This document shows positions 11,956-25,803 of a DNA stretch of 27,708 nt, in pieces. Positions within the stretch are counted from its first letter, which is position 1. Every line of letters begins with the position of its first letter. The stretch spans positions 1 through 27,708 of IMG/VR virus record IMGVR_UViG_3300045741_000112; one strand, given 5' to 3'. The position numbers were made by a program, and so were the translations under genes. Below the pieces are notes generated by a model. The model had not been told where the DNA came from. It searched no databases and worked only from the letters and a program-made list of their open reading frames with translations. This stretch comes from a virus.

Positions 11956-14049
11956 TTAGCCCTCGTTCTTGTCAGTAGAGGTGAACCCAGACTGGGCCGT
12001 TGTGAAGGATGGTTGAGCTTCAGAGAAGCCTTCTTGAGTAGTTGGGAAGCCCCCTGTAGAAGTATCCGTCATCCCACGTTGGTAAGTCCAGATCATGGGA
12101 CTTACCAAGCCAGCTAGAGCAATTCTCAGTTGCCCGAAAGCTTCAGCACTTGAGATAGCTCCCACAGCCACCAGCATCGTAAGGCTGTAGAGGGACGGAA
12201 CTCCTAAGGCCTCAGCGGAACTGATAGCCCCAACCTGGGACAAGTTGTTGAGATTACTCAGAGCTGGATTGCCAAAAGTTTCCCCACTGGCAATCGCGCC
12301 GACCGAGGTCAAGGCTCTCACGCCGGGCGTGACCGTAGTTGTGCCAAAGACCTCCGCGGATGTGATTCCACCCACAGAAGATAGGTTGATGAACCTATCG
12401 ATGACTGCGGTACCGAATGCTTCAGCGCTGGAGATGTTACCGACCGAGGTAACTGAAACTCCACCCACCGAGATGGCGGTAGTACCGAATGCTTCAGCCG
12501 AGCTAATCGCTCCAGCCGAAGTAATGAACTGGCCGCCAAGGGTGATGACCGCAGTACCAAAAGCTTCAGCAGAGCTTATAGCCCCAACCGAGGTTACCGA
12601 AACTCCCCCAACGGAGATTACTGCAGTCCCGAAGACTTCAGCAGTACTGATCGCCCCAACTGAACTAATTGAGTTCAACGTTGAGATTACCGTAGTGCCG
12701 AAGGCTTCAGCGGTGCCAATCGCGCCTACTGAACTAATAGAGTTCAGCTTGGAGATTACTGCGGTGCCAAAAGCCTCAGTGGTGGAGATGTTCCCAACGG
12801 CAGTAATGCCATAGGTAGCTCCAAGAACAGTCGTTCCAAAAGCCTCGGCGGTTGCGATAGCTCCTACGGCTGTGATAGAGTTCAACCCTGAGATTACTGC
12901 GGTACCGAACGCCTCGGCTGTGGCGATTGCCCCAACTGCTGTGATCGAATTCTGGGCCAAGAGAACCGTGGTACCGAAAGCTTCAGCTGAGGCGATTGCA
13001 CCCACTGAAGTTACTGATTGGCCACCACCAGAGAGTGAGATAGTCGCTGTCCCGAAAGCTTCTGCCGAGCTGATAGCTCCAACAGAAGTAACAGAAACCC
13101 CTCCCACGGCGATGACGGTCGTCCCAAAAACTTCAGCAGAGGCGACGTTACCAGCTGCTGAGATGGAGTAGCTTGTGCTAAGAACCGAAGTACCAAACGC
13201 CTCCGCCGAGCTTATTGCTCCAACCGAGGTAACTCCGATTGCTGTGGAAAGGGCAGCATTACCAAATGCTTCTAGCGAAGCAATGGCTCCTACAGAAGTG
13301 ATGGACTGGGCGAAAGATGAGTCGTAGGCGAGCCAGATCTCTGAACCGCCACTCAGCTTCACCAAGCCCCACAGGGGGTATTCCACCCAATCGGTGGAGA
13401 CGATGATGTCGTCTAGGTAAGCTGTCCAGGTCCCGTAGGCCACGGTGGTGTTCACGTGGCCCGCGTAGAAGGCATTCCAATCCCTGTTGGCATCTACGCC
13501 GGACATGTCAAGATCTGGGTAGTCCTTGGAATCTACTCGCCAACGGAGTTCGGCAAGGGCCGTTCCGTCTACTACCAGATCGACCTTGTACCAGACTCCC
13601 GTGGTTATGACAGGACCAACCTGCCGGTTTGCCCATCTTTGAGTGTTGAAGACGCAGAGCTTACTAGTCGCCTGTTCAAACCCCAACCAGGCGTTGTATC
13701 CCGAGGGGTTTTCAAATCCTGCTAATTCTGCGTCTACTCCCGGCAATGATGCGAAGTAGATAGAGAAACTAGCGACGACGAACTTCGAACTTGTAAATGA
13801 TTTGGCGGCATAGCACGCAGAACCAGCAGCAGCAACCTTCACCGAGTAGCTGCCGTTCAGGTCATACGTTGTAGATGCAGTGACCGAACCCGTAATTGAA
13901 GTCCAGTGAGCTAGATCGCTGCATTCTCCGCCACAGATGAACTGAGCGAACGGACCGGTCCAAGGTTCATAGATCTGCTGATAGTCATGCCAAAGTCCAC
14001 CATACCTGTAGAATGGGGACCAAGGATTCTCAATCAGCGTCCGAGACAT
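11956..14049 (-). CDS. Appendage protein with 17 SAEAFG-type tandem repeats
   Basis: The 697-residue protein starts at an ATG overlapping the upstream stop as TGATG. Residues 1-40 are Trp/Tyr-rich (SPFYRYGGLWHDYQQIYEPW). Residues about 45-225 look like a LamG/jelly-roll sandwich (YSVKVAAAGSACYAAKSFTS, GVWYKVDLVVDGTALAELRW). Residues 249-648 are 17 tandem copies, about 23.5 residues each, of a motif near ITSVGAISSAEAFGTAVIS. The last 49 residues contain four Phe-centred heptads (GFPTTQE, GFSEAQP, SFTTAQS, GFTSTDK). Similar SAEAFG repeats occur in other phage structural proteins as far as I recall, with no settled function. The regular alternation suggests a beta-solenoid or beta-bead fibre. 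A head- or neck-attached fibre is a reasonable guess from position. Confidence 0.75.
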   Translation of the reverse strand: MSRTLIENPWSPFYRYGGLWHDYQQIYEPWTGPFAQFICGGECSDLAHWTSITGSVTASTTYDLNGSYSVKVAAAGSACYAAKSFTSSKFVVASFSIYFASLPGVDAELAGFENPSGYNAWLGFEQATSKLCVFNTQRWANRQVGPVITTGVWYKVDLVVDGTALAELRWRVDSKDYPDLDMSGVDANRDWNAFYAGHVNTTVAYGTWTAYLDDIIVSTDWVEYPLWGLVKLSGGSEIWLAYDSSFAQSITSVGAIASLEAFGNAALSTAIGVTSVGAISSAEAFGTSVLSTSYSISAAGNVASAEVFGTTVIAVGGVSVTSVGAISSAEAFGTATISLSGGGQSVTSVGAIASAEAFGTTVLLAQNSITAVGAIATAEAFGTAVISGLNSITAVGAIATAEAFGTTVLGATYGITAVGNISTTEAFGTAVISKLNSISSVGAIGTAEAFGTTVISTLNSISSVGAISTAEVFGTAVISVGGVSVTSVGAISSAEAFGTAVITLGGQFITSAGAISSAEAFGTTAISVGGVSVTSVGNISSAEAFGTAVIDRFINLSSVGGITSAEVFGTTTVTPGVRALTSVGAIASGETFGNPALSNLNNLSQVGAISSAEALGVPSLYSLTMLVAVGAISSAEAFGQLRIALAGLVSPMIWTYQRGMTDTSTGGFPTTQEGFSEAQPSFTTAQSGFTSTDKNEG
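12106..13305 (-). repeat. Tandem repeat array, 17 units of about 69-78 bases, inside a gene
   Basis: Each unit encodes a VGAIxSAEAFG core followed by 8-12 variable residues. The core DNA is similar between units but not identical, with many synonymous changes, so the array is old or under protein-level selection. Unit boundaries vary because some units carry an additional GGVS-type spacer. This is coding sequence and not a CRISPR or intergenic satellite. Confidence 0.9.
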
Positions 14050-15047
14050 CAGCCAAAAGCCACGATCAGGACCATTCCAGGCCCGCCATTTCCGCCAGCC
14101 CCAGAAGCAGTAGTTGTGGTATCTTCGGCAGCACCCCCACCGCCTCCACCACAGCCGAGAGCCCCGTGGCCCCCACTACCAGCTGAACCGGCATCCTTCA
14201 GACCACCACCGCCAGAACCGCTTCCTCCGAAGCTAACCCTCATGTCTGGAAGTGGGAGCTTGGAGGCCGGAACATCGTTCCAGTTCAAGTACCCATCAAT
14301 CCCCGCCGCCCCGGCAGAACCTCCGGCAGGAACAGTCTTAGTTCCACCGGTCAATCCCATAGAAGATGGCCAGTTGCCCGCTCCACCGTTGGTGTTCGCG
14401 TGAGTAGCTGCCAGGCCCCCGCCTCCACCACCTCCAGCAGTCCAAACTACTGCTGCCCCGGCAGCTCCATTGCCAGCCGAGCTGTTGCCAGCAGCCGCCC
14501 CAATCCAAGTAGACAGAGCAGCTGCAGCACCTGCACCAGCTGCAGAAGTAGTTCCACCACTACCTCCACCCCCGCCATCTCCTAGAGTAATAGATCGCCT
14601 CTGAAGGATAGCGGCGGTCAATGGCGCAGCGGTAGATCTTTCGAAACAAACAGCGGAGGGCAGTCCCGGCCCGCCAGCGTTGCCACTCGTAGAGTTGCTG
14701 GAAACAGCAGCTCCACCAGCTCCACCGTAAGCCGCAAAGACGTACAGCCTTTCGGGAATCAATGCTGTTGGAAGCCAGACTTCTCCTACACCAGCTCCTC
14801 CGCCTCCACCTCCGCCCCAGGCCGCAGTACCGGCGACAGACTTCCTTCCAGAACCTCCACCGCCACCTGAGCCAATGCAACGAATGTAGAGAAGTTTGGC
14901 CCACTTGGGGACTTCGTAGGTTTCCTCCAGCCAACCAACTGTCCCGCCCGTAGGTACGAGAAGTCCGAATGGAGGTACCCACAGCTTCACATCTGTTAGT
15001 GAGAGGTTCGCCTGGCCTCGGGCCATGCCAGGTGGGAACATCATCAT
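14049..15047 (-). CDS. Glycine-rich minor structural protein
   Basis: The 332-residue protein begins at the first of three consecutive ATG codons, overlapping the upstream stop as TAATG. Residues 25-55 have a conserved-looking strand segment (GTVGWLEETYEVPKWAKLLY) leading into IRCIGSGGGGGSG. From there on the protein is dominated by glycine, alanine and serine, with many runs of four to eight glycines. This arrangement (one W..P.WA..L.V..IG strand, then Gly-rich sequence) is common in phage glycine-rich tail or fibre tip proteins, where glycine tracts can pack as polyglycine-II helices and carry variable recognition loops. It sits between small structural proteins and the SAEAFG protein, so a head or neck fibre tip is plausible. 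Confidence 0.75.
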   Translation of the reverse strand: MMMFPPGMARGQANLSLTDVKLWVPPFGLLVPTGGTVGWLEETYEVPKWAKLLYIRCIGSGGGGGSGRKSVAGTAAWGGGGGGGAGVGEVWLPTALIPERLYVFAAYGGAGGAAVSSNSTSGNAGGPGLPSAVCFERSTAAPLTAAILQRRSITLGDGGGGGSGGTTSAAGAGAAAALSTWIGAAAGNSSAGNGAAGAAVVWTAGGGGGGGLAATHANTNGGAGNWPSSMGLTGGTKTVPAGGSAGAAGIDGYLNWNDVPASKLPLPDMRVSFGGSGSGGGGLKDAGSAGSGGHGALGCGGGGGGAAEDTTTTASGAGGNGGPGMVLIVAFG

Positions 15048-15677: not shown

Positions 15678-16079
15678 CTAGAGCTTGAAGAGCTTGTTCG
15701 CGCCAGCATCCGGAGTGACGGTGATGTCACCACCGTTCGGAGTGACCGGCAGGTTAGTTGCGGTGTCGATGAGGCAGATCAAGCGAGCGGAGGCATCCGC
15801 TGCGTTGTACTTGTAGTATGCGATCCTGGTGATCTGAGCTCCAGAGACCGCGGAGACGGTTTTGGCGGCGTGGTTCGCAACGCCGGCCGTCACCGTGGGG
15901 CTGGCGATAGCAGTAGAACGTGCGACTATGTTTGCACCCAGGTCAGAGACGAACTGGTGAGTGCTCAGGTTAGGGGTGTAGCCGGCGGAAAGGAAGGCAA
16001 ACCGGATATCGTCCGTATCCCAGTCGATGGCCCCTCCTAGGAACCCTTCCCGGCCGTAGTCGTAAAGTGCGTTCGCCAT
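15678..16079 (-). CDS. Conserved phage structural protein, MANALYDYGREGFL family
   Basis: The 133-residue protein starts at ATG with AAGGAG upstream, three bases after the glycosyltransferase stop. The N-terminal pattern (NALYDYGREGFLGGAIDWDT, then DIRFAFLSAGYTPNLSTHQF) is one I recognise from many actinophage and environmental phage genomes, where a MANxLYxxGRxxFLxGxIxW start is followed by two beta-rich halves. Those proteins are usually unannotated or called minor tail proteins. It is small, soluble and beta-rich. Its place with other appendage-type proteins supports a virion role. The exact function is unknown. Confidence 0.7.
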   Translation of the reverse strand: MANALYDYGREGFLGGAIDWDTDDIRFAFLSAGYTPNLSTHQFVSDLGANIVARSTAIASPTVTAGVANHAAKTVSAVSGAQITRIAYYKYNAADASARLICLIDTATNLPVTPNGGDITVTPDAGANKLFKL

Positions 16080-16082
16080 TCC

Positions 16083-19040
16083 TTACTTCTCCTTCAGGAG
16101 ATCGAGCCATTGAACAGCTCGCTGGTCCCAAGAAACTGCCGGTGCATTCTTTCGAGAGAGTCTCCGCATCTTGAGCATCTCGGTATCGCGGCCCAACTTG
16201 AGCAACCTAATGGTTTGTTCAGCAAAGGCCTGCTGAACCGCTGGGTCATGAGGATTGTTATCGATGAAGACTCCGCTCTGAACAGTCTCGGCAAGAGCAG
16301 CAAAGTGGTTGGTGATGGGCACTACTCCCGCCAACTGAGCTTCAATGGCTGTGATGCAGTAAGTCTCGGGGAAGTATGTTGGGTACAACCAGACCGAAGA
16401 CTTTGCAAACTCTTTCGCCAGTTCTTCCTGGTTGATCCTGCCGTGATTGACCACGTTCTTCGCATTCAGGAGTAGGTTATTCACCTTCTCTCTGAAGGGA
16501 CGAAGATGCTCGTAGCCAGCTTCCAGAACCTTGTCGAAGTTATTCCAACCGTAATAAATGTGAAGTTCTGCATCTGGAATGGCTTCTACCACCTGTGGCC
16601 AGATTCCTTCAAGGATGATGTCCAGACCACGGTCGGGGGAGCTGGAATAGATCACCCTGTGGGGATTTCTATCCTTATCGTCAAAATTCCACCCTGGGAA
16701 CCGGCCAAGATCAACTCCGTTCCCGATCACTACCAACTTGTTTGGATCGAGGAAGGGGTACTTCTCCAGCATGAAGTTCTTGTGCCACTCGGTCAGAACT
16801 ACGATGCTATCAAACTTTCGAGCCCGGACCGGAGTCAGGCGATCGCCGGCGTCAGTATCATGCATCCACAAGACGAGTCTGTCCGTGTTGATGGGAAGAT
16901 CGGCCGCCTCTGGGAGTCGCCAGGCGATGAACAGGTCTGAGTGAACCTCTGGGTGGAACTGGTCCACAGGGCGGTAAGCGCCGCCGTAGTAGTATCCGGG
17001 ATCATCAGTTTCGATGTAACTGATCATCCGATGACCAGCATTGGCGAAGGCTTCAGCTAGTTTGATGATGGCAGTTTCACTACCACCAAGTCCGCCTTCG
17101 GCCCACATCCGAGGGTTCCACTTCTCGAGGGTTCCTGGGGCCAAACAGATGATGTTCTTGTCGGTTCTGGCTCCTGGACGGTAATCCGCCAAAATCCAGC
17201 CGGTGTCCGCCATAGGCTGTCGGTACAAGTTCCAGATCTGGCCTCGTGGCGAAATCATCGCCTCCAAGTCCATCTGGTCGAAGATGCGAAGATGGCCTTT
17301 TGGCTCCAGCTTGTCCCACCAGGGAACTCTACCACGATCCCAAGACATGAATGGAGTTGTGATCGCGATATGGTTAGCTGTCTTCTCGAGCTCGGCCAAC
17401 CCCGCAACCGGATCCACCAGGTGTTCGATTACTTCGAAGAAGATGGCAAGATCAGCCTTTGGGCCTTGCCACGTTCCAACTTGGTCAACGTTACCAACTT
17501 CGAAGTAAGCGTCCAATCCCCATTTCTTAGCTCGTAGATTTGCAAGGTCGACACAACGCGGATCGAGATCGAGTCCGTGGACTCGGGCTCCGGTTTCGCG
17601 GGCGAGGGGTAGGGAGATGAAGCCATCAGAGCAACCCCAGTCAACGATCTCTTGGGCGTTGATTCGTTTTGCAACATCAATGGCGAACTTGAGACGTGGG
17701 TACTTGAGCTGATTCTCGTCCAAGATCCGCTCTTCGTCCATCGGCGCCCAGTGTGGATTACCTGTGTAGAAGTCCACCATGATCTGGGGATCGTCGATGT
17801 GAGCGGTTTGCACCATCGTACGCTGATACGCGTCAACGATCGGAGGCGAGTGCTGAAGGTGCTTTGGGACACAGTTGGCGACAAGCTGTCGAACCTTGAG
17901 CCATTCATCGTTCCGACCCAAGTGTTCACGAAGCTTGAGGAATGCCCGGACAACTTGCTGGAGTTCAAGTTCTTCCTCAATCAACTTGATCTGAGTAGCA
18001 AGTCGGGGATCTTCTCTCACTTTCCAAGCTTCACGGAACTGCGCGTAAGCCATCTCGAAGTCTTGGAGAGCTGTGTAGGCCAATCCCAGCACCATCGCCG
18101 GGTGGAACGTGTAGTCCAGAGGATTGGTGATCAGCATCGTCTCAGTTCTAGGCTTCGACGAACCAATCTTGGTGTACTCAATACAGGCGAGATAGTTCTT
18201 CATCCTGTAGTAAGTTTCGGCCATCCCAAACCAGGCATCTGGTTCACGTGGGAACAGCTCTGTGGCCTGTCGATCGTAGTCGAGAGACTTCTTGTAGTCT
18301 CCCATGATTCGCCAGGCATCAGCCATCTTGTGGAGAATCTGGTACTTTTCTTCATCCCACCCACAGAGGGGGATGAAACGCTGCCAGTGAACGAGGGCTT
18401 CTCGCAGATTTCCGCGAAGAGCGTTCTCAGAGCCTAGATAGGCGAGAACTCGTGGGTCAGGATTAGGTTCCCCGGCCTCTAGCTCTTCGTAGAGAAGTCG
18501 AAGGTTGCGGTCCGGTTCGGTCTTCCCAGGGGGCTTGTGATGCACCCATAGGATGTCGTTGACAAGCTGGTTCACCTTGGGGACGCCGTCTGCCGGAACA
18601 AGAACCTCGTGAACTCGGCCCTTCCATTCCCAAGCTCGTGGGTTCTTCAGGAGTCGTTCTCGGACCAGCCAACAAATGCTCTGGCCCATCTCATCTTGTG
18701 CGTAGTTGTAGCCGAAGTAGAACGCGTCTGTGCCAGGAAAATCGACTGGCAGATTCCTCAGGCTCTCGCCGTTGACAATGATGTCGTCCCCGTCCATCCA
18801 CAGGAAGTAATCCGTGGTGACTCGATTCAGGACCTCTTGGCGAGCAGCACTAAAGTCGTTCTGCCAGTCGATCTCGAAGACTTCACTGGTGAACTTTCGA
18901 GCGATTTCTTCAGTATCGTCCTGGGATTTCCCTCCCAGCCCGATAACGATCTGGTCCACGTGAGGGGCGATGCTCTTGAGAGCCTCTTCAAGAGTACGCC
19001 CCTCATCGCGAACGATCATTCCTAGCCCGATAGTTGCCAT
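16083..19040 (-). CDS. Multi-domain GT2 glycosyltransferase, TPR, methyltransferase, GT4 glycosyltransferase
   Basis: I start this 985-residue protein at ATG 19040 (MATIGLGMIVRDEG). A longer frame runs back into the capsid gene, but its added part is Ser/Thr/Arg shadow sequence. Residues 1-150 are a GT2 domain: MIVRDEG, then TDYFLWMDGDD with a DxD-like metal site. Residues 195-345 are TPR-like helical pairs. Residues 455-600 are a class I methyltransferase: VDWGCSDGF (SAM loop), GLDLDP, and FFEVIEHLVDP. Residues 628-985 are a GT4-type transferase: GGLGGSETAI at 649, RVIYSSSPDRGLDII near 800, and PETYCITAIEAQLAG near 891 with the E-x7-E motif. It probably adds and methylates sugars on a phage or surface polymer. 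Its place between capsid and appendage genes suggests virion glycosylation, which is inference. Confidence 0.9.
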   Translation of the reverse strand: MATIGLGMIVRDEGRTLEEALKSIAPHVDQIVIGLGGKSQDDTEEIARKFTSEVFEIDWQNDFSAARQEVLNRVTTDYFLWMDGDDIIVNGESLRNLPVDFPGTDAFYFGYNYAQDEMGQSICWLVRERLLKNPRAWEWKGRVHEVLVPADGVPKVNQLVNDILWVHHKPPGKTEPDRNLRLLYEELEAGEPNPDPRVLAYLGSENALRGNLREALVHWQRFIPLCGWDEEKYQILHKMADAWRIMGDYKKSLDYDRQATELFPREPDAWFGMAETYYRMKNYLACIEYTKIGSSKPRTETMLITNPLDYTFHPAMVLGLAYTALQDFEMAYAQFREAWKVREDPRLATQIKLIEEELELQQVVRAFLKLREHLGRNDEWLKVRQLVANCVPKHLQHSPPIVDAYQRTMVQTAHIDDPQIMVDFYTGNPHWAPMDEERILDENQLKYPRLKFAIDVAKRINAQEIVDWGCSDGFISLPLARETGARVHGLDLDPRCVDLANLRAKKWGLDAYFEVGNVDQVGTWQGPKADLAIFFEVIEHLVDPVAGLAELEKTANHIAITTPFMSWDRGRVPWWDKLEPKGHLRIFDQMDLEAMISPRGQIWNLYRQPMADTGWILADYRPGARTDKNIICLAPGTLEKWNPRMWAEGGLGGSETAIIKLAEAFANAGHRMISYIETDDPGYYYGGAYRPVDQFHPEVHSDLFIAWRLPEAADLPINTDRLVLWMHDTDAGDRLTPVRARKFDSIVVLTEWHKNFMLEKYPFLDPNKLVVIGNGVDLGRFPGWNFDDKDRNPHRVIYSSSPDRGLDIILEGIWPQVVEAIPDAELHIYYGWNNFDKVLEAGYEHLRPFREKVNNLLLNAKNVVNHGRINQEELAKEFAKSSVWLYPTYFPETYCITAIEAQLAGVVPITNHFAALAETVQSGVFIDNNPHDPAVQQAFAEQTIRLLKLGRDTEMLKMRRLSRKNAPAVSWDQRAVQWLDLLKEK

Positions 19041-19063
19041 TGGAAAGTTGCCGCCTTCCCTAG

Positions 19064-19108
19064 TTAGCGGGACTTCTTCCCGCCCTTTTTCTTTCCACCG
19101 CAGCCCAT
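19064..19108 (-). CDS. Tiny Cys/Gly/Lys peptide ORF (14 residues)
   Basis: Between the capsid stop (19123) and the glycosyltransferase start lies ATG followed by 13 sense codons and TAA, reading MGCGGKKKGGKKSR. TAGGAG stands 6 bases before the ATG, better than the signal of the next gene. It is too short for standard gene callers. I recall similar tiny Cys/Gly/Lys-rich ORFs in other phages, without a defined function. The charge (+7) suggests binding of nucleic acid or the acidic capsid interior. Translation may also serve to couple the next gene. Confidence 0.5.
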   Translation of the reverse strand: MGCGGKKKGGKKSR

Positions 19109-19122
19109 TACAGGCTCCTAGC

Positions 19123-20157
19123 TTACGGGACGATCGCCCCGATAACCCCACGCCACTCGATGGGGATGAAGTCGTAGTCGTGGCGGAGCTTGTAGGAGAT
19201 CTCGTCGAACTCGAAGGAGTAGGGATCCTCTCCACCGAGAACAGCGCGAACGCCCGGGTCCTTGAGGCCGATGAACGGGGTCTGGTTCCCATTCAGCGTG
19301 ACCTGGGCGAAGATCGCGAAATCTCCCTTCAGGTCCGCTGCCATGTACCAGTTGTTGGCGTCCGTGAAGAATGGCTCGATGATGATCTCCGACCAGATGC
19401 CCTTGACCTGGTTCGCTTCCAGGGCGCTGGCACCGTTCGGCAGGAGCTCATTCTCGTTGATCGCCCTCGCGACGTAGCGGAGCTCTGTCGGAATGATCAG
19501 AGTCCGGCCCGCCGGAGTGACGATTGTGTAGCCTTCCTCGTCCGTCATGTCGTCGAACTTGAGGTCAGCGGTCTTCACGACGCCCATGCCGGTGACATCC
19601 GCGGTGAGCGCGGTGGTCGTCAGGTTGCCGTGAGCTGCGGAGAAGAGAGCGTTGCCATCCCACATCGTGGGGTTCGACTGGAAGACGGTGATAGCCGCCC
19701 GCTTGCTCATGGTTCGAGCCAGAGCCTCAGCGGCGAGCTTCGGCATTTCCTGGATCTTGCCAAGGCGGTCGGCGATCACGAGTCGACGGGTGACGTCGAA
19801 GGCAGCGCCCCACTCCTTCAGCTTGAGCTTCGGCCCGTCATACTCGCGCATGACAAGCTTCTCGTAGGGGCTGTTCGGAGCCCGCTCAGGGATGTCCGTG
19901 AAGCGGCCGAACTTGCTGGAGGTGTACTCCTCGAAGTCCTCGAGCGAGAACTCCTTGGTGTACTTCGTCCACTGCCCCTGAATCTCGGTGAACCGGTTCA
20001 GGAACGTGTGACGAAGGTACTTGGTGATGTAGGTCGGAAAGTCCGTGACCGACATCGCCTCTTCTGCGGTCAGCTCCCCGTTGTGGAGCTTCTGCCGCAT
20101 CTCGATGTAGCCATCGTAGAGGCGAACTCGGCGACCAGGCGCCAGGCCCATGCTCAC
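19123..20157 (-). CDS. Major capsid protein
   Basis: The 344-residue protein begins at GTG with AGGAG 9 bases upstream; an ATG two codons later is a less well-placed alternative. Residues about 90-140 (REYDGPKLKLKEWGAAFDVT, RRLVIADRLGKIQEMP) match the E-loop/P-domain region of Mu gpT-like and related HK97-fold capsid proteins. NALFSAAHGNLTT near 170 is a hallmark of this family. The C-terminal third (FIGLKDPGVRAVLGGEDPYS) matches the A-domain end. Its place after protease/scaffold and decoration genes supports the call. Codon composition is richer in G+C than in the tail genes. The capsid shell would be built from this protein, and it is a candidate substrate of the adjacent glycosyltransferase. 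Confidence 0.9.
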   Translation of the reverse strand: MSMGLAPGRRVRLYDGYIEMRQKLHNGELTAEEAMSVTDFPTYITKYLRHTFLNRFTEIQGQWTKYTKEFSLEDFEEYTSSKFGRFTDIPERAPNSPYEKLVMREYDGPKLKLKEWGAAFDVTRRLVIADRLGKIQEMPKLAAEALARTMSKRAAITVFQSNPTMWDGNALFSAAHGNLTTTALTADVTGMGVVKTADLKFDDMTDEEGYTIVTPAGRTLIIPTELRYVARAINENELLPNGASALEANQVKGIWSEIIIEPFFTDANNWYMAADLKGDFAIFAQVTLNGNQTPFIGLKDPGVRAVLGGEDPYSFEFDEISYKLRHDYDFIPIEWRGVIGAIVP

Positions 20158-20172
20158 GTTCTGCTTCTCCTT

Positions 20173-20526
20173 CTAGTACGCGTTCGGGTTGAACAGCTGG
20201 GTCTTCACGTAGCCAGTGGCCGAAGAAGCCCACATCCGTCCCACGGGGTTCGCACCAGACGCAGCAGAACCGAAGACCTGAAGCGTGGTAGCCTGGGTAG
20301 TGGGATAGGCGTAAACCTTGGTGCCAGGCGGGGTTCCGACCGCCCCGTTGCCCCACTTGAGGTTCCAGACACCCTCCATGATGATCGTCATGAGGTCGCC
20401 AACCACCTTGACGTCATCCTGAACAGTGCCGTAGTACCCCATGTAGTAGACCAGATCACCGGCCTTGTGGAGCTGGGCAGAAGTCACCTGAAGGCGACGA
20501 CCGGCAGCAACTTCGTGGAGGCTCAT
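20173..20526 (-). CDS. Capsid decoration protein (DUF2190-like)
   Basis: The 117-residue protein starts at ATG three bases after the protease/scaffold stop, with GGGAAG upstream. The order of strands (AGDLVYYMGYYGTVQDDVKV, then GDLMTIIMEGVWNLKWGNGA, then GTKVYAYPTTQ, then a terminal GRMWASSATGYVKTQLF) follows the pattern of DUF2190 capsid-stabilising proteins. There a GDLV....GV strand pair precedes a W..G strand and a G..VY strand. In many phages this gene lies between protease/scaffold and major capsid protein, as here. It likely trimerises on the capsid exterior. Family assignment is by pattern only. Confidence 0.65.
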   Translation of the reverse strand: MSLHEVAAGRRLQVTSAQLHKAGDLVYYMGYYGTVQDDVKVVGDLMTIIMEGVWNLKWGNGAVGTPPGTKVYAYPTTQATTLQVFGSAASGANPVGRMWASSATGYVKTQLFNPNAY

Positions 20527-20529
20527 CGA

Positions 20530-21624
20530 TTACTTCCCATCCTTGCTAGCGGGCTTGGTCCCGAAGAACGACTCGACGGCCTCGTGGGCGGAAATCACCT
20601 GAGGCGCGGGGGCCGGATCAGACGAGCCCGAAGGGCCGAAACCAGAGAGCCGCGGACCAGCTCCAGCGGCCTTGAGCTCCTCGCGGGTCTGCTCGATGAT
20701 CTTGTCAACGGCCGCCTGATCGAACGACTCAGCGGCGCTGAACGTTCGGATGAGGCGCTCCGCTGTCAGCTTCGGCAGCCCAGCCTTGCTGATGTGAGTC
20801 GCGATCTTCTCGCGCTCAGCAACAACCGAGCTCTGGTGATTGATGTACGACTGAATGCCTTCCTGGATGAGGCCAGCGACGGCTTCCTTGGTGAGGCTTT
20901 CTGCCGCCACAGGGGGTGCAGCGGTCTTCTTGTGCATCGGATTGGCGCAGTTGCCGTTGGCCGCATCCGCGGTTCCGCCACAATCCGGGCAAGTCGCTGC
21001 CTCAAGAGTGTTGTGCTTCTTGAGGAACTCCTCAGCCAGGGCCGGAGGCAGATTAGCCTCGAGCTCCTCAATCGTCAGCGAGGTCCAATCCACCTCATCG
21101 TCTCCTTCCTGAACGAATCCTTCCAGTCCGCCACCTGCGGCTGGGAACACGACGAAATCGCAGGACCGTGGCGAGATGATCTCCGAGATGTCTTCGAACA
21201 TCTTCCCGGTGACTGGATCTTTGCGACGTTCGCCCCTGACGACCTGACTCATGGAGTTGCCCATGAACTGGTGGCCAGTACTCATCTTCTCGGCGAACTC
21301 TCGGTCGATGTAGAGGACCTTCCCCTTCACCGACTTGGTCGGTTCGTCGTACCAAGCCTCCTCTACCCCGGCCACCAGTTCACGAACTGATCGCTGGGTT
21401 GGCAGCTTCGTCCGGTCGTGATCCATGAACATCCGAAGCCCGTTGTACATGCCCTTCGAAACTGCGGTTCGGAGAGCTGCCTCTCGGTATTCACGGTTGT
21501 TCTTGGATCGGCCAGCCTTGATCAGGGTATGAACAGCCCTGACCTGGCCTGTGGCCTCATCACGCTGGAAGTCCTCGGCCTCTGTAGCTTCGAAAAGATC
21601 AGAGACTCGATGCGTGCGAAGCAT
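20530..21624 (-). CDS. Prohead protease and scaffold polyprotein
   Basis: The 364-residue protein starts at an ATG overlapping the upstream stop as TAATG. Residues 30-165 resemble a Mu I / S78-type prohead protease: AGRSKNNREYREAALR, a candidate catalytic His in MFMDH (H69), a candidate Ser in QFMGNSMSQ (S124), and SPRSCDFVVFPAAGGG. The remaining 200 residues are the helical, acidic scaffold, ending in a low-complexity GPSGSSDPAPAPQ linker. A C-x2-C-x10-C-x4-H cluster (C212, C215, C226, H231) sits in the linker between the halves, an unusual zinc-knuckle-like insertion. The protein should shape the procapsid and then cleave itself and the capsid N-terminus. Confidence 0.8.
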   Translation of the reverse strand: MLRTHRVSDLFEATEAEDFQRDEATGQVRAVHTLIKAGRSKNNREYREAALRTAVSKGMYNGLRMFMDHDRTKLPTQRSVRELVAGVEEAWYDEPTKSVKGKVLYIDREFAEKMSTGHQFMGNSMSQVVRGERRKDPVTGKMFEDISEIISPRSCDFVVFPAAGGGLEGFVQEGDDEVDWTSLTIEELEANLPPALAEEFLKKHNTLEAATCPDCGGTADAANGNCANPMHKKTAAPPVAAESLTKEAVAGLIQEGIQSYINHQSSVVAEREKIATHISKAGLPKLTAERLIRTFSAAESFDQAAVDKIIEQTREELKAAGAGPRLSGFGPSGSSDPAPAPQVISAHEAVESFFGTKPASKDGK

Positions 21625-22179: not shown

Positions 22180-24213
22180 CTAACGGCTCGGAATTCTCCC
22201 GCCAATCCCATTTCTGGACGGCGGAACCTTACCGGCGATGATTCTCTGCAAGTCTGGCGGGATGACGTTGCCATTGCCGTCTTGGATGGGATTCGGGCCA
22301 TCTGGGTTCCCCGGACCGTTGCTGTTGGGTGGCGGTGGAGGCATATTCCCAGCAAATGGGATCAACTGAGGCGGAATTGGGTTCTTCTTCTCCTCAGTGT
22401 TGATTTCCTCCTCGATCATCGGCATCAAGGCGTTGAGGTTAGCAACCCCGAGAACAGTGAGGGCTCCACGAATGGCTTCGATCTTCACCAGCTTGTTGTC
22501 AGGAGCGATGTTCTGAGTAAGCTGGCCGTAGGCGGTGATGTACTTCACCACGTCCTGGGAGATGATGGCCGGACAAACGATCGAAACTCGGCGGAGGTAA
22601 TCTCGGTACTCATCCGGGAAGGCAAGACGAAGCATCCACCTTAGCAGATCCTCGATCTCATCCTTCAACCATTGCTGCCAATCCTCGTAGGACTTCACCA
22701 TCGGAAGTTCCATGGACTGGGCTGTGGCGAGGTTCGCATCCCCGCCTTCTCCGTAGTAGTGGATCATGGTACCGACGCCAGCACCAGCAACTGCCAGAAG
22801 CATGCGCGCGTCCTCGCGGGCGTTAGCAGCTCCCGTGTCAGTCTTCATCCACTCAAGATCAATCGCCTGATTAGAGTCGTAAGTAGCTCCTGGGGCAGGC
22901 CTCGTGGCCTTCCGGAACTCACTCCCCTCATTGGCGGGATTGGAATAGCCCGTCTCCAAACCACCGAGAGAACCTTTGAACGAAGCCACTCCTGTGGGTC
23001 CAGCCTTCACCTTCCGCTTGAAGGCGATAGCTGTGGCAGCATCATTGATAGCCGCCCGGTTCTCCATGAACTCCCGGAAGACTCGGAACCACTGCCTGGA
23101 GGAATAAAGCTCCGAGATACCCCGCTGTCCGATCCTGGTCCACAGGGGGTTGATGAGCGAATGCTTGATCTTCTCTTCCGGCTTTGCTAGCTTAGCCGGT
23201 GGAATCTTGATCCTAGTGCCAATCCTGGCGAGATCTTCCTCGGTCACGCGGTAGTCGAGGTAGTACTTGGTAGTAGGTTCGTTCTTGGCTGGAACTACCT
23301 GATCGGTATTCCCGTCGTAGACGAGCTCCATGTAGACCCGTTTGTAGTAGATCGGCTTCTTCCGATTGTCCGGGTCGTAGATGGTTAGCTTGATTTCTTC
23401 GATGGGAATCTCGGTCAGAACCAGCCAGGGAGCCGCGGTACCCTCGACACCGATGAAGAAGAACTCCCCATCCGTGTAAACCCCATCAACCCACTCATAC
23501 ATAGCTCGCCTGGTGGTCAGAACGAGCTCATTATCGGGATGTTCCCAGAACATCTCCATGGTTTCTTTGAGCGGGTCGCCATCTTCAGCGGGTGGGACCA
23601 CATTGGACTTCGGGTCCGTAACCGGCTGATCACCGCTGGGAGCCTGGTTTGGGTCTTCTGGAGGCGGAACAGGCTTCTTAGGAGCCACAGGGGGCTTGGA
23701 AGCCGTTGGCGGAGGAACTACGGCTTCTTTCGCAGGAAATGGGGGCTTCTGGGCCGTTGGGGCCGCCTTAGGAGGAATGGGATTCGCCGGGTCTGAGGGA
23801 TTAGCAGGATCTTCCGGGGCGTTGGGATCAACTGGCTCGGCGTTTGGATCGTTTGGGTTGTTTGGATCGACTGGGGCATCGACTTTCTCCGCAGCAACCA
23901 GATACTGGATGCCTTTCCCAAGAGTAAATCGAAGTGTCAGCTTAGCGGATTGTTTGGCAAGCGGGTTCTCCTGACGAAGCCTTCGCAGCCTCTTGATGTA
24001 TTCCTCGCGGTTCGCGGAAGGAATAATCTCGCCAACCTTGCCAAAATCGAACAGATTGAGGTAGTCTAGGTCTTCAATCTGCCGAGAAAGAAGGCGGTTG
24101 TCATTAGACACCGCCTCAAGTGCAGAACCTGTATCATTTAGGGCTGATTCTAGGTATTCAAGTTCTCCCTGAACCCCAGACACCCTCGCGATGGCTTCCT
24201 GGATCCTGTTCAC
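22180..24213 (-). CDS. Portal protein with a proline-rich insertion
   Basis: The 677-residue protein starts at GTG with GAGGG 9 bases upstream. Residues 45-110 (NREEYIKRLRRLRQENPLAK, LTLRFTLGKGIQYLV) and 214-600 (MEMFWEHPDNELVLTTRRAM; GEFFFIGVEGTAAPWLVLTE; IKHSLINPLWTRIGQRGISE; REFMENRAAINDAATAIAFK; YYGEGGDANLATAQSMELPM) match phage portal organisation, including the wing, stem and crown segments. About 100 residues (111-213) between the first two blocks are Pro, Asp, Asn and Ala rich with DPNNPNDP / DPANPSDPANP repeats. The C-terminus is another Pro/Asn-rich tail. The protein should form the dodecameric DNA gate at one capsid vertex. The gene lies downstream of terminase, as expected. Confidence 0.85.
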   Translation of the reverse strand: MNRIQEAIARVSGVQGELEYLESALNDTGSALEAVSNDNRLLSRQIEDLDYLNLFDFGKVGEIIPSANREEYIKRLRRLRQENPLAKQSAKLTLRFTLGKGIQYLVAAEKVDAPVDPNNPNDPNAEPVDPNAPEDPANPSDPANPIPPKAAPTAQKPPFPAKEAVVPPPTASKPPVAPKKPVPPPEDPNQAPSGDQPVTDPKSNVVPPAEDGDPLKETMEMFWEHPDNELVLTTRRAMYEWVDGVYTDGEFFFIGVEGTAAPWLVLTEIPIEEIKLTIYDPDNRKKPIYYKRVYMELVYDGNTDQVVPAKNEPTTKYYLDYRVTEEDLARIGTRIKIPPAKLAKPEEKIKHSLINPLWTRIGQRGISELYSSRQWFRVFREFMENRAAINDAATAIAFKRKVKAGPTGVASFKGSLGGLETGYSNPANEGSEFRKATRPAPGATYDSNQAIDLEWMKTDTGAANAREDARMLLAVAGAGVGTMIHYYGEGGDANLATAQSMELPMVKSYEDWQQWLKDEIEDLLRWMLRLAFPDEYRDYLRRVSIVCPAIISQDVVKYITAYGQLTQNIAPDNKLVKIEAIRGALTVLGVANLNALMPMIEEEINTEEKKNPIPPQLIPFAGNMPPPPPNSNGPGNPDGPNPIQDGNGNVIPPDLQRIIAGKVPPSRNGIGGRIPSR

Positions 24214-24406
24214 TCGCCATCACCCTCTTGAAAGCCCGTTTCTGCTTCTGGACGTGAAGCCCACCGTCAGAAAGACGGCGATTAGACGGAACAAACTGCT
24301 TAGTCGGCTTCTGTGGCGGCCGTTTGCGGAACTTTTTCATGAGCGAACTCAAGCAACCGTCCAGTTGACGATCCAGCCTCCAGAGTTCACGCTCTAGACT
24401 CACCAA
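24158..24406 (-). CDS. Small basic protein between terminase and portal
   Basis: The 82-residue frame begins at TTG or GTG (24406 or 24403), overlapping the terminase stop, and ends 56 bases inside the portal gene. GGGGG stands about 8 bases before the GTG. The product is strongly basic (MKKFRKRPPQKPTK, VQKQKRAFKRV). It fills a gap of 186 bases that would otherwise hold nothing in a very compact operon. It could bind DNA or the portal. The C-terminal part may be an artefact of overlap with the portal frame. No family is recognised. Confidence 0.45.
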   Translation of the reverse strand: MVSLERELWRLDRQLDGCLSSLMKKFRKRPPQKPTKQFVPSNRRLSDGGLHVQKQKRAFKRVMASEQDPGSHREGVWGSGRT

Positions 24407-25803
24407 TCTACCCCCAAGCTGACTCGCTCGAAGATGTCCGGCATCGCCTCCTCGTAATCGACGTACTCAACCTCCTCGTGCTTCCGAGCCTCGTTGAAGA
24501 GCTCAGGGAAGCGGTTGTAGTAGCCGTAACGAGTTGCGTCGATGGTGTGGTTATCCACATCTACCGGAATCTCACTTGGAGAACGCTCTACCCTCTGCCG
24601 GGCTAGATCAGGATAGTGATAAAGCCCATGTTCCTTGATCGCGTTGATGCAAGCTGGATCATACGTGATCCTAGGAACGATCTTGCCAGGCCTACTGAGC
24701 AGTGGATCTCTCAAGAAAGTATGATGTACATCAATACCCTTCTTGATAGACGGCTTCTCACCCCCGGCGTTGTAGCCCCGGAGCCTCCAAGTTGCTGCCG
24801 CCTCAGCCGCGCCCTTGTCGATGGTGACGATTAGATCGTTGCGAGGCCGGCCAGCATCGTTCAGAAGAGCGTAGGCCCACATCGCCTCTGCCATCCGAAT
24901 GATTTGAGCTGTAGTATGGCCTGTCAGGTAGATCTCATCCAGTACACGAATCTGCTCATCAGGAGTGATCTGGACCAGCAGAACTGCGTACGGGGCGGTA
25001 GAACCAGGATCCACCCACAGGGCCGTCTCCATGTTAGGATCGTACTCATGACGCCTAACGTGGATGTTGTTATCAAACTCAGGAAAGACCAGTCCACCGT
25101 ATGCGATGAACTTAGCTTCCCATTCTTGTGCGAAGGCCTCCGGCGTCGATGTCTGCCGAGCTGCCTCAATTTCTTCTGCTGAAAGAAGAGGGTTAGAGCT
25201 CGATGGGATAGCCCAGCTCTCCCAATCAGCGAACTTCTTCTCGTGACTCTGCCCGCGCTGGTAGAAATCGTAGAACCAGTTGAACCCACGGGGGGTAGAG
25301 GTCATCAGAGCCCATCCACCGCGATCCGCCAGAGCCGGCCGGAGGTACTGGTCCCAGGTTCTGTGCTTCAAGCGAGCCGCCTCGGCAAGAATGATAGCAT
25401 CTAAACCCTCACCGATGAGCTGGTCGGGGTTCTCCTCCGACCGACACTCGATGAAAGAACCGTTATCGCACTGGATGAACATCTCCCGTTCGGATTTTCG
25501 CTTGACCGGAATCCTTTGCTGATCTACAATCAGCTTCCAGACGATGCGAAACTCCTTTTCCGCAAGGTCCATCGTAGGTCCCACAACCCAGACGTATGAG
25601 TTGGGGATTACGAGCTGGCAAGCAGCCTCTCTACCGCCCAGAACGGATTTACCGATCCGCCGCCCCCCATCGACGATCCTAAATCTAGCCTTCGATCGGT
25701 GAACTTCCGCCTGATAGGGGAAAGTCTGTAGATTCCAGGATCGGAAAATCAACGCCTTCCGTTCCGGAGTCAGGAGCGACGAGCGCTGCGAGGAGAGTAT
25801 CAT
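24400..25803 (-). CDS. terL: Terminase large subunit
   Basis: The 467-residue protein is the ATPase-nuclease that packages DNA into the prohead. Walker A is GGRRIGKS at 46-53. The Walker B region is DAIILAEAARL at 135-145, with the catalytic Glu at 141 but Ala instead of the usual Asp before it. The coupling motif TSTPRG is at 168-173. The nuclease acidic triad is visible as WVDPG (D265), VTIDKG (D329) and NHTIDATRYGYY (D422). The first ATG (25803) has no good ribosome binding site and overlaps the small terminase by 119 bases. A TTG at 25752 with GGAA/AAGG upstream is a plausible alternative, and no conserved motif would be lost. Confidence 0.92.
   Translation of the reverse strand: MILSSQRSSLLTPERKALIFRSWNLQTFPYQAEVHRSKARFRIVDGGRRIGKSVLGGREAACQLVIPNSYVWVVGPTMDLAEKEFRIVWKLIVDQQRIPVKRKSEREMFIQCDNGSFIECRSEENPDQLIGEGLDAIILAEAARLKHRTWDQYLRPALADRGGWALMTSTPRGFNWFYDFYQRGQSHEKKFADWESWAIPSSSNPLLSAEEIEAARQTSTPEAFAQEWEAKFIAYGGLVFPEFDNNIHVRRHEYDPNMETALWVDPGSTAPYAVLLVQITPDEQIRVLDEIYLTGHTTAQIIRMAEAMWAYALLNDAGRPRNDLIVTIDKGAAEAAATWRLRGYNAGGEKPSIKKGIDVHHTFLRDPLLSRPGKIVPRITYDPACINAIKEHGLYHYPDLARQRVERSPSEIPVDVDNHTIDATRYGYYNRFPELFNEARKHEEVEYVDYEEAMPDIFERVSLGVDW

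Follow-up and report, generated by a model that had tools for sequence, protein, structure and literature searches.

A glycosyltransferase-TPR-methyltransferase-glycosyltransferase fusion encoded behind the major capsid gene of uncultured tailed phages, with a probable role in virion glycosylation

To our knowledge, the only phages with demonstrated virion glycosylation are a few mycobacteriophages. Phage-encoded glycosyltransferases (GTs) of the mycobacteriophages Che8, Corndog, and Myrna are described as decorating the capsid and the tail-tube protein (Freeman 2023, as cited in PMC12363180). Pfam analysis demonstrated that Che8 gp108 (L186:12172-13347), annotated as a glycosyltransferase only, contains a GT2 domain and a TylF-like methyltransferase (MT) domain. 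This combination in a phage that glycosylates its virion predicts methylated sugars, and gp108 supports, as a precedent, the involvement of methylation when phages glycosylate their virions. In the chlorovirus PBCV-1, the protein A064R unites two GTs and an O-methyltransferase, and its role in completing the glycan of the major capsid protein (MCP) has been proven (PMC9614988). Among cellular proteins, Listeria GmaR has a GT domain that places GlcNAc on flagellin, and the tetratricopeptide repeat (TPR) region behind this domain has been proposed to bind the substrate (PMC9638930).

The window analyzed in this study is the whole stretch of DNA, an entire IMG/VR record of 27,708 bases. The record is classed as linear, and the window is therefore probably a fragment. 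Its minus strand carries genes for a large terminase, a portal, a protease or scaffold, a decoration protein, and the MCP, followed by the gene of a multi-domain fusion protein and then by tail and appendage genes, as listed below.

24400..25803, minus strand: large terminase (tblastn against annotated actinophage terminases, about 33% identity)
22180..24213, minus strand: portal protein (phrog_10963, E 2.3e-29)
20530..21624, minus strand: head maturation protease or scaffold (phrog_15531, E 1.4e-9)
20173..20526, minus strand: capsid decoration or cement protein (phrog_122, E 5e-6; PF09956 slightly below its cut-off)
19123..20157, minus strand: HK97-type MCP (Phage_capsid_4, E 8e-27)
19064..19108, minus strand: 14-codon ORF MGCGGKKKGGKKSR with a GGAG-type site, in the gap between the MCP and fusion genes, a gap that is not kept in relatives
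16083..19040, minus strand: fusion gene, GT2-TPR-class I MT-GT4, 985 aa (Pfam, AlphaFold; kept in 16 or more viral contigs)
18471..19040, minus strand: predicted GT2 (GT-A) domain of the fusion, aa 1-190, with DGDD at 83-86 and H144-E145 (PF00535, E 1.4e-8)
17841..18470, minus strand: TPR region of the fusion, aa 191-400 (Pfam TPR_1/TPR_2; helices in the model)
17166..17813, minus strand: predicted SAM-dependent MT domain of the fusion, aa 410-625 (PF13649, E 9e-10)
16086..17165, minus strand: predicted GT4 (GT-B) domain of the fusion, aa 626-985, with GLGGSE, SSPDRG, and E-x7-E (PF00534/PF13692)
15678..16079, minus strand: phrog_644 protein, 133 aa, the next gene behind the fusion (phrog_644, E 5e-29)
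14049..15047, minus strand: Gly-rich protein (27% G), a candidate appendage that might serve as acceptor (PF21722; phrog_754 minor tail)
11956..14049, minus strand: SAEAFG-repeat protein, 24% Ser+Thr, candidate acceptor by composition (phrog_13352 minor tail, E 6e-33)

The fusion gene starts with an ATG at 19040 and ends with a stop codon at 16085-16083. A mechanical ORF extends 5' to 19292, and the alignment of relatives starts at the ATG at 19040. On the opposite strand, an 806-codon open frame (18970-21390, plus strand) lies antisense to the MCP and protease genes and is most likely a by-product of codon bias. Two pairs of relatives gave dN 0.19 with dS 1.4 and dN 0.20 with dS 1.5 for the fusion. 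A dN well below dS indicates purifying selection, and, together with the long conserved ORF, it rules out a chance or frame artefact.

The original prediction of GT2, TPR, MT, and GT4 domains within one 985-residue protein was confirmed. The curated Pfam cut-offs were exceeded by GT2 (residues 8-88), TPR_1/TPR_2 (approximately 245-345), class I MT (461-595), and GT4/GT1 (740-952). The motifs read at that stage were also present, with DWGCSDGF starting at residue 467, EVIEH at 536-540, GLGGSET at 650-656, and E892-x7-E900 in addition to DGDD. They were kept in full-length relatives with conservative changes only (single members have, for example, DADD or ELLEH), and DGDD or DADD, the DxD motif of GT2, was present in all aligned relatives. 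Structure prediction and HMM searches, proposed at the outset as checks, found GT and MT folds; an AlphaFold2 model with 15 relatives as input had a mean pLDDT of 87.9 over the 985 residues. Of the PHROG families, phrog_13126 matched the N-terminal half (E 4e-32) and phrog_2170 the C-terminal part (E 1e-14), and both are labelled only as glycosyltransferases.

The gene had been placed directly behind the MCP gene and ahead of appendage genes. The distance to the MCP gene is 83 nt in the window, and the genes for the phrog_644 protein, two small proteins, and the Gly-rich and SAEAFG-repeat proteins follow in that order. The linkage to the capsid gene proved to be stronger than originally claimed. 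In IMG/VR contigs that were searched by the MCP, carried this MCP (50-70% identical), and had at least 500 bp downstream of it, the fusion was found 20-484 bp behind the MCP gene in 28 of 28 cases; five further contigs with this MCP end too soon to tell and are outside this count. The fusion accompanies this capsid gene invariably. A remote MCP (32% identical, L185) was accompanied by no fusion, and an unrelated GT4 was encoded three genes on (L185:3421-4686). The enzyme also recurs with three other MCP families beyond the core family, at a distance of one to four ORFs downstream of MCPs assigned to phrog_1005 (11 loci with fused, split, and permuted forms), phrog_1328 (seven loci), and phrog_1357 (five loci). 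Fused, split, MT-less, or permuted modules occur within four ORFs of four capsid PHROG types.

Five scans of viral contigs yielded a core family, whose members are 47-59% identical across their full length, and a much wider superfamily of 219 stretches encoding relatives of the GT4 module. Module HMMs run on the fetched loci distinguished 84 proteins, namely 40 GT2-GT4, 34 GT2-MT-GT4, eight MT-GT4, and two GT4-MT-GT2, the last being the permuted order in L018 and L019. Several of the eight MT-GT4 proteins adjoin a separate GT2-TPR gene, and some are truncated where the contig ends. In the Manatee Spring siphovirus MW202497, the modules are separate genes near the terminase and portal genes, and a gene annotated as GroEL (L003:5640-7208) lies between its split GT genes. 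A radical SAM protein is encoded right behind the split MT-GT4 gene in two loci (L100:7151-7879 and L113:7148-7879) and may act on the same glycan or acceptor. In a tree of the GT4 domain, the window belongs to a core clade of 20 rows that has full support. The architectures cluster on this tree yet require nine changes, which shows repeated rearrangement of the modules, although some labels come from truncated genes; the fused, split, and permuted forms of the same modules point to one pathway. What had been regarded as unusual is thus no isolated case, since viruses commonly carry this module set and arrange it in several ways. Two GTs and an MT in one viral polypeptide are already known from A064R (PMC9614988).

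No close relatives were found among sequenced phages, the best being Manatee Spring metagenomic phages at 32%. The actinophage setting of the original prediction finds no support beyond the terminase matches to actinophages, which are only about 33% identical. Of two scans of bacterial and archaeal genomes, the first returned nothing and the second returned four loci in metagenome-assembled genomes (MAGs). As found, the fusion family is almost exclusively viral, and a recent cellular origin is disfavoured by this small number of cellular loci. One of the four (L140) contains a weak terminase-like ORF, and phage contigs in bins may account for some of the MAG loci. No description of this fusion was found in the open-licence literature searched.

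The expected likeness of the GT2-TPR half to peptide or protein glycosyltransferases was recovered. GmaR (22ao, E 7.5e-25) and SunS (7msp, E 2.5e-19) ranked first for the GT2 part in a profile search of PDB sequences, in which 7x9r, named as a glycosyl transferase family 2 structure, matched residues 141-370 and ran into the TPR region (E 4.3e-7). Foldseek placed the peptide S-glycosyltransferases SunS and ThuS on the N-terminal half with TMt values up to 0.66, consistent with the same GT2-helical fold. Each of these two has a single GT, in contrast to the multi-enzyme fusion, and the SunS equivalog model TIGR04195 scored the fusion at 32.1 bits against a cut-off of 350. By this cut-off the fusion is a distant relative and not a SunS. 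Among natural proteins in the PDB, GmaR matches the GT part best and shares the order of GT2 followed by TPR, but it is a cellular protein with an antirepressor C-terminus and has no MT or GT4.

Among viral systems, A064R is nearest to the fusion in logic, as judged by domain make-up, since both place two GT domains and one MT in a single polypeptide. It differs in its length of 638 aa, its GT-GT-MT order, its origin from a eukaryotic virus, and its extension of an existing N-glycan, and no TPR has been reported for it. Che8 is nearest in biology, as a phage that glycosylates both its capsid and its tail. However, its three genes are separate, lie at the far genome end, and are of GT2/GT25 type, with no GT4 or TPR found, and gp108-gp110 gave no meaningful match to the HMMs of the fusion modules.

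The GT4 part adopts a GT-B fold in the model, with MshA (3c4q) aligned by VIA-align at Z 30.8 and rmsd 2.5 over 321 residues. This domain occupies the VIA-align list of the full-length model, which is little informative on other parts. The MT domain, with a pLDDT of 81 when modelled alone, is a generic class I enzyme by fold, with VIA Z values of about 19 against many MTs of this class, and the lowest Foldseek E-values included those of EvdMO1 (E 3.8e-11), whose structure was co-solved with D-fucose, and WbdD (E 1.3e-10). A sugar as its substrate is not proven by the modelled fold alone. The resemblance of these two domains to enzymes of polysaccharides or small-molecule glycans (WbdD, MshA-type GT-B) would fit an enzyme that alters a host surface glycan, such as capsule, O-antigen, or teichoic acid, with phage exclusion or changed adsorption as the outcome. 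We consider this very improbable. The fusion contains no membrane helix or other transmembrane segment (highest 19-residue hydropathy, 1.49), and no integrase was found in ten core records, so that it is not an obvious gene of lysogenic conversion; the integrase result itself argues against lysogenic conversion. The likeness of the GT2 domain to protein and peptide GTs and the fixed co-location with the MCP also stand against a surface target.

The combination of TPR and GT follows an OGT-like logic that might target host proteins, and internal virion proteins can be encoded by genes of the capsid operon. The fusion could accordingly act on a host protein as an ejected or late glycosylating effector, or be a virion protein with partly non-catalytic domains. 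This appears improbable, as the catalytic motifs of all three enzymes have been kept under purifying selection.

Given its position, its likeness to protein GTs, the lack of a membrane segment and of integrase genes, and the strict linkage to the MCP, we favour glycosylation of virion proteins. The fusion is predicted from its sequence to be a soluble enzyme assembling a short and probably O-methylated glycan on proteins of the virion, and we assign a probability of roughly 0.65 to this reading. The enzyme would be made late in the cytoplasm along with the head proteins. The TPR would recognize a virion protein, on a side chain of which the GT2-TPR half would place the first sugar; GT4 would add a second sugar from a host nucleotide-sugar; and the MT would O-methylate a sugar, leaving a short capped glycan on a capsid or appendage protein. 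Priming by GT2, extension by GT4, and then O-methylation is the most natural order. No epimerase gene for sugar-donor synthesis was found in core genomes, and the donors would thus come from the host. We infer catalytic activity, a virion acceptor, this order of action, a sugar as the methyl target, and a benefit, which may lie in shielding from lectins and defences of hosts or predators, in stability, or in adsorption.

Candidate acceptors are the MCP, the phrog_644 protein, and the Ser/Thr-rich SAEAFG-type proteins. The phrog_644 protein comes next after the fusion in most relatives; a homologue was found near the fusion in 14 of them, and its reading frame overlaps the end of the fusion in some of them (e.g., L004), suggesting translational coupling. 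The minor-tail-like protein of the window consists of many degenerate SVGAISSAEAFGTAVIS-type repeats, and its counterparts reach 2184 aa in L009. The Ser+Thr content is 19-26% in the SAEAFG-type proteins of most relatives.

Two observations count against a virion acceptor. The first concerns genomic position. With the core counted, about half of the 84 distinct enzymes are encoded four or fewer ORFs from an MCP; the other half, mostly GT2-GT4 forms in other, often larger phages, lie near primases, epimerases, and further GTs. The second is a possible alternative acceptor in DNA. Divergent thymidylate-synthase (TS) homologues were identified in six of seven near-complete core relatives of 56-62 kb, as listed below. 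In an alignment reading, Asp occupies the position of E. coli Asn177 in each of the six, and none has His at position 147.

L146:3795-4493, minus strand: Asp177 TS homologue, dCMP hydroxymethylase/methylase-like
L148:2501-3211: Asp177 TS homologue, dCMP hydroxymethylase/methylase-like
L150:11387-12166: Asp177 TS homologue, dCMP hydroxymethylase/methylase-like
L155:7868-8644, minus strand: Asp177 TS homologue, dCMP hydroxymethylase/methylase-like
L156:10093-10857, minus strand: Asp177 TS homologue, dCMP hydroxymethylase/methylase-like
L157:9858-10544: Asp177 TS homologue, dCMP hydroxymethylase/methylase-like

Asp177 marks cytosine-modified contigs in MetaGPA (PMC8670742), and modified cytosine is probable in the DNA of these six relatives. 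The window is a 27.7-kb fragment without the TS region of its longer relatives. Such homologues could supply hydroxymethylcytosine (hmC) as an acceptor, on which the GTs would build a methylated disaccharide that protects the phage DNA from restriction, and their presence in six of the seven long relatives makes DNA glycosylation a real rival, one that the original prediction had not taken into account. Genes for a dCMP deaminase, an NTP pyrophosphohydrolase, and a dNMP kinase lie near the TS homologue in L146, and a search for PF00535/PF00534 GTs in the TS-bearing core genomes found the fusion alone. The phage GTs that act on hmC in DNA, such as T4 alpha/beta-GT, are encoded in genomes with a dCMP hydroxymethylase-like gene. 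A carbamoyltransferase route for hmC was looked for, and none was found.

Even so, we regard DNA as an unlikely acceptor. PF00303 had no match in a further 20 records that carry these modules, two of them complete circular genomes, and one core relative of 58 kb was also without a TS homologue. The full-length proteins carry a net charge of -30 to -45 and each module is acidic, unlike a DNA binder. The fusion gene lies in the late capsid operon, away from the nucleotide genes, and tracks the capsid gene, and the nearest solved relatives of its GT2 domain act on protein or peptide. T4 alpha/beta-GT was absent among the matches listed by the PDB profile search, as were other hmC DNA GTs, and also among those listed by the structure comparison with VIA-align, which is dominated by GT4. 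The fusion differs from the phage hmC DNA GTs in being acidic, multi-enzyme, and capsid-linked. If DNA is the acceptor after all, it would represent a new, capsid-coupled kind of DNA hypermodification enzyme.

Glycosylation of virion proteins therefore remains the preferred reading. We give an even chance to the broader proposal that a single polypeptide able to prime, extend, and methyl-cap a glycan, obligate in the head operon of uncultured tailed phages, together with rearranged modules beside at least four capsid families, reflects widespread capsid-coupled glycan building, a component of phage virion assembly that would have escaped notice until now. The compact cytoplasmic GT-TPR-MT-GT enzyme could also serve as a tool for producing methyl-capped glycoproteins in bacteria. 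If the preferred reading is true, virion glycosylation would be a common strategy, given how constantly the enzyme follows the capsid gene across many uncultured phages, and sugar-coated phages would become findable by sequence search.
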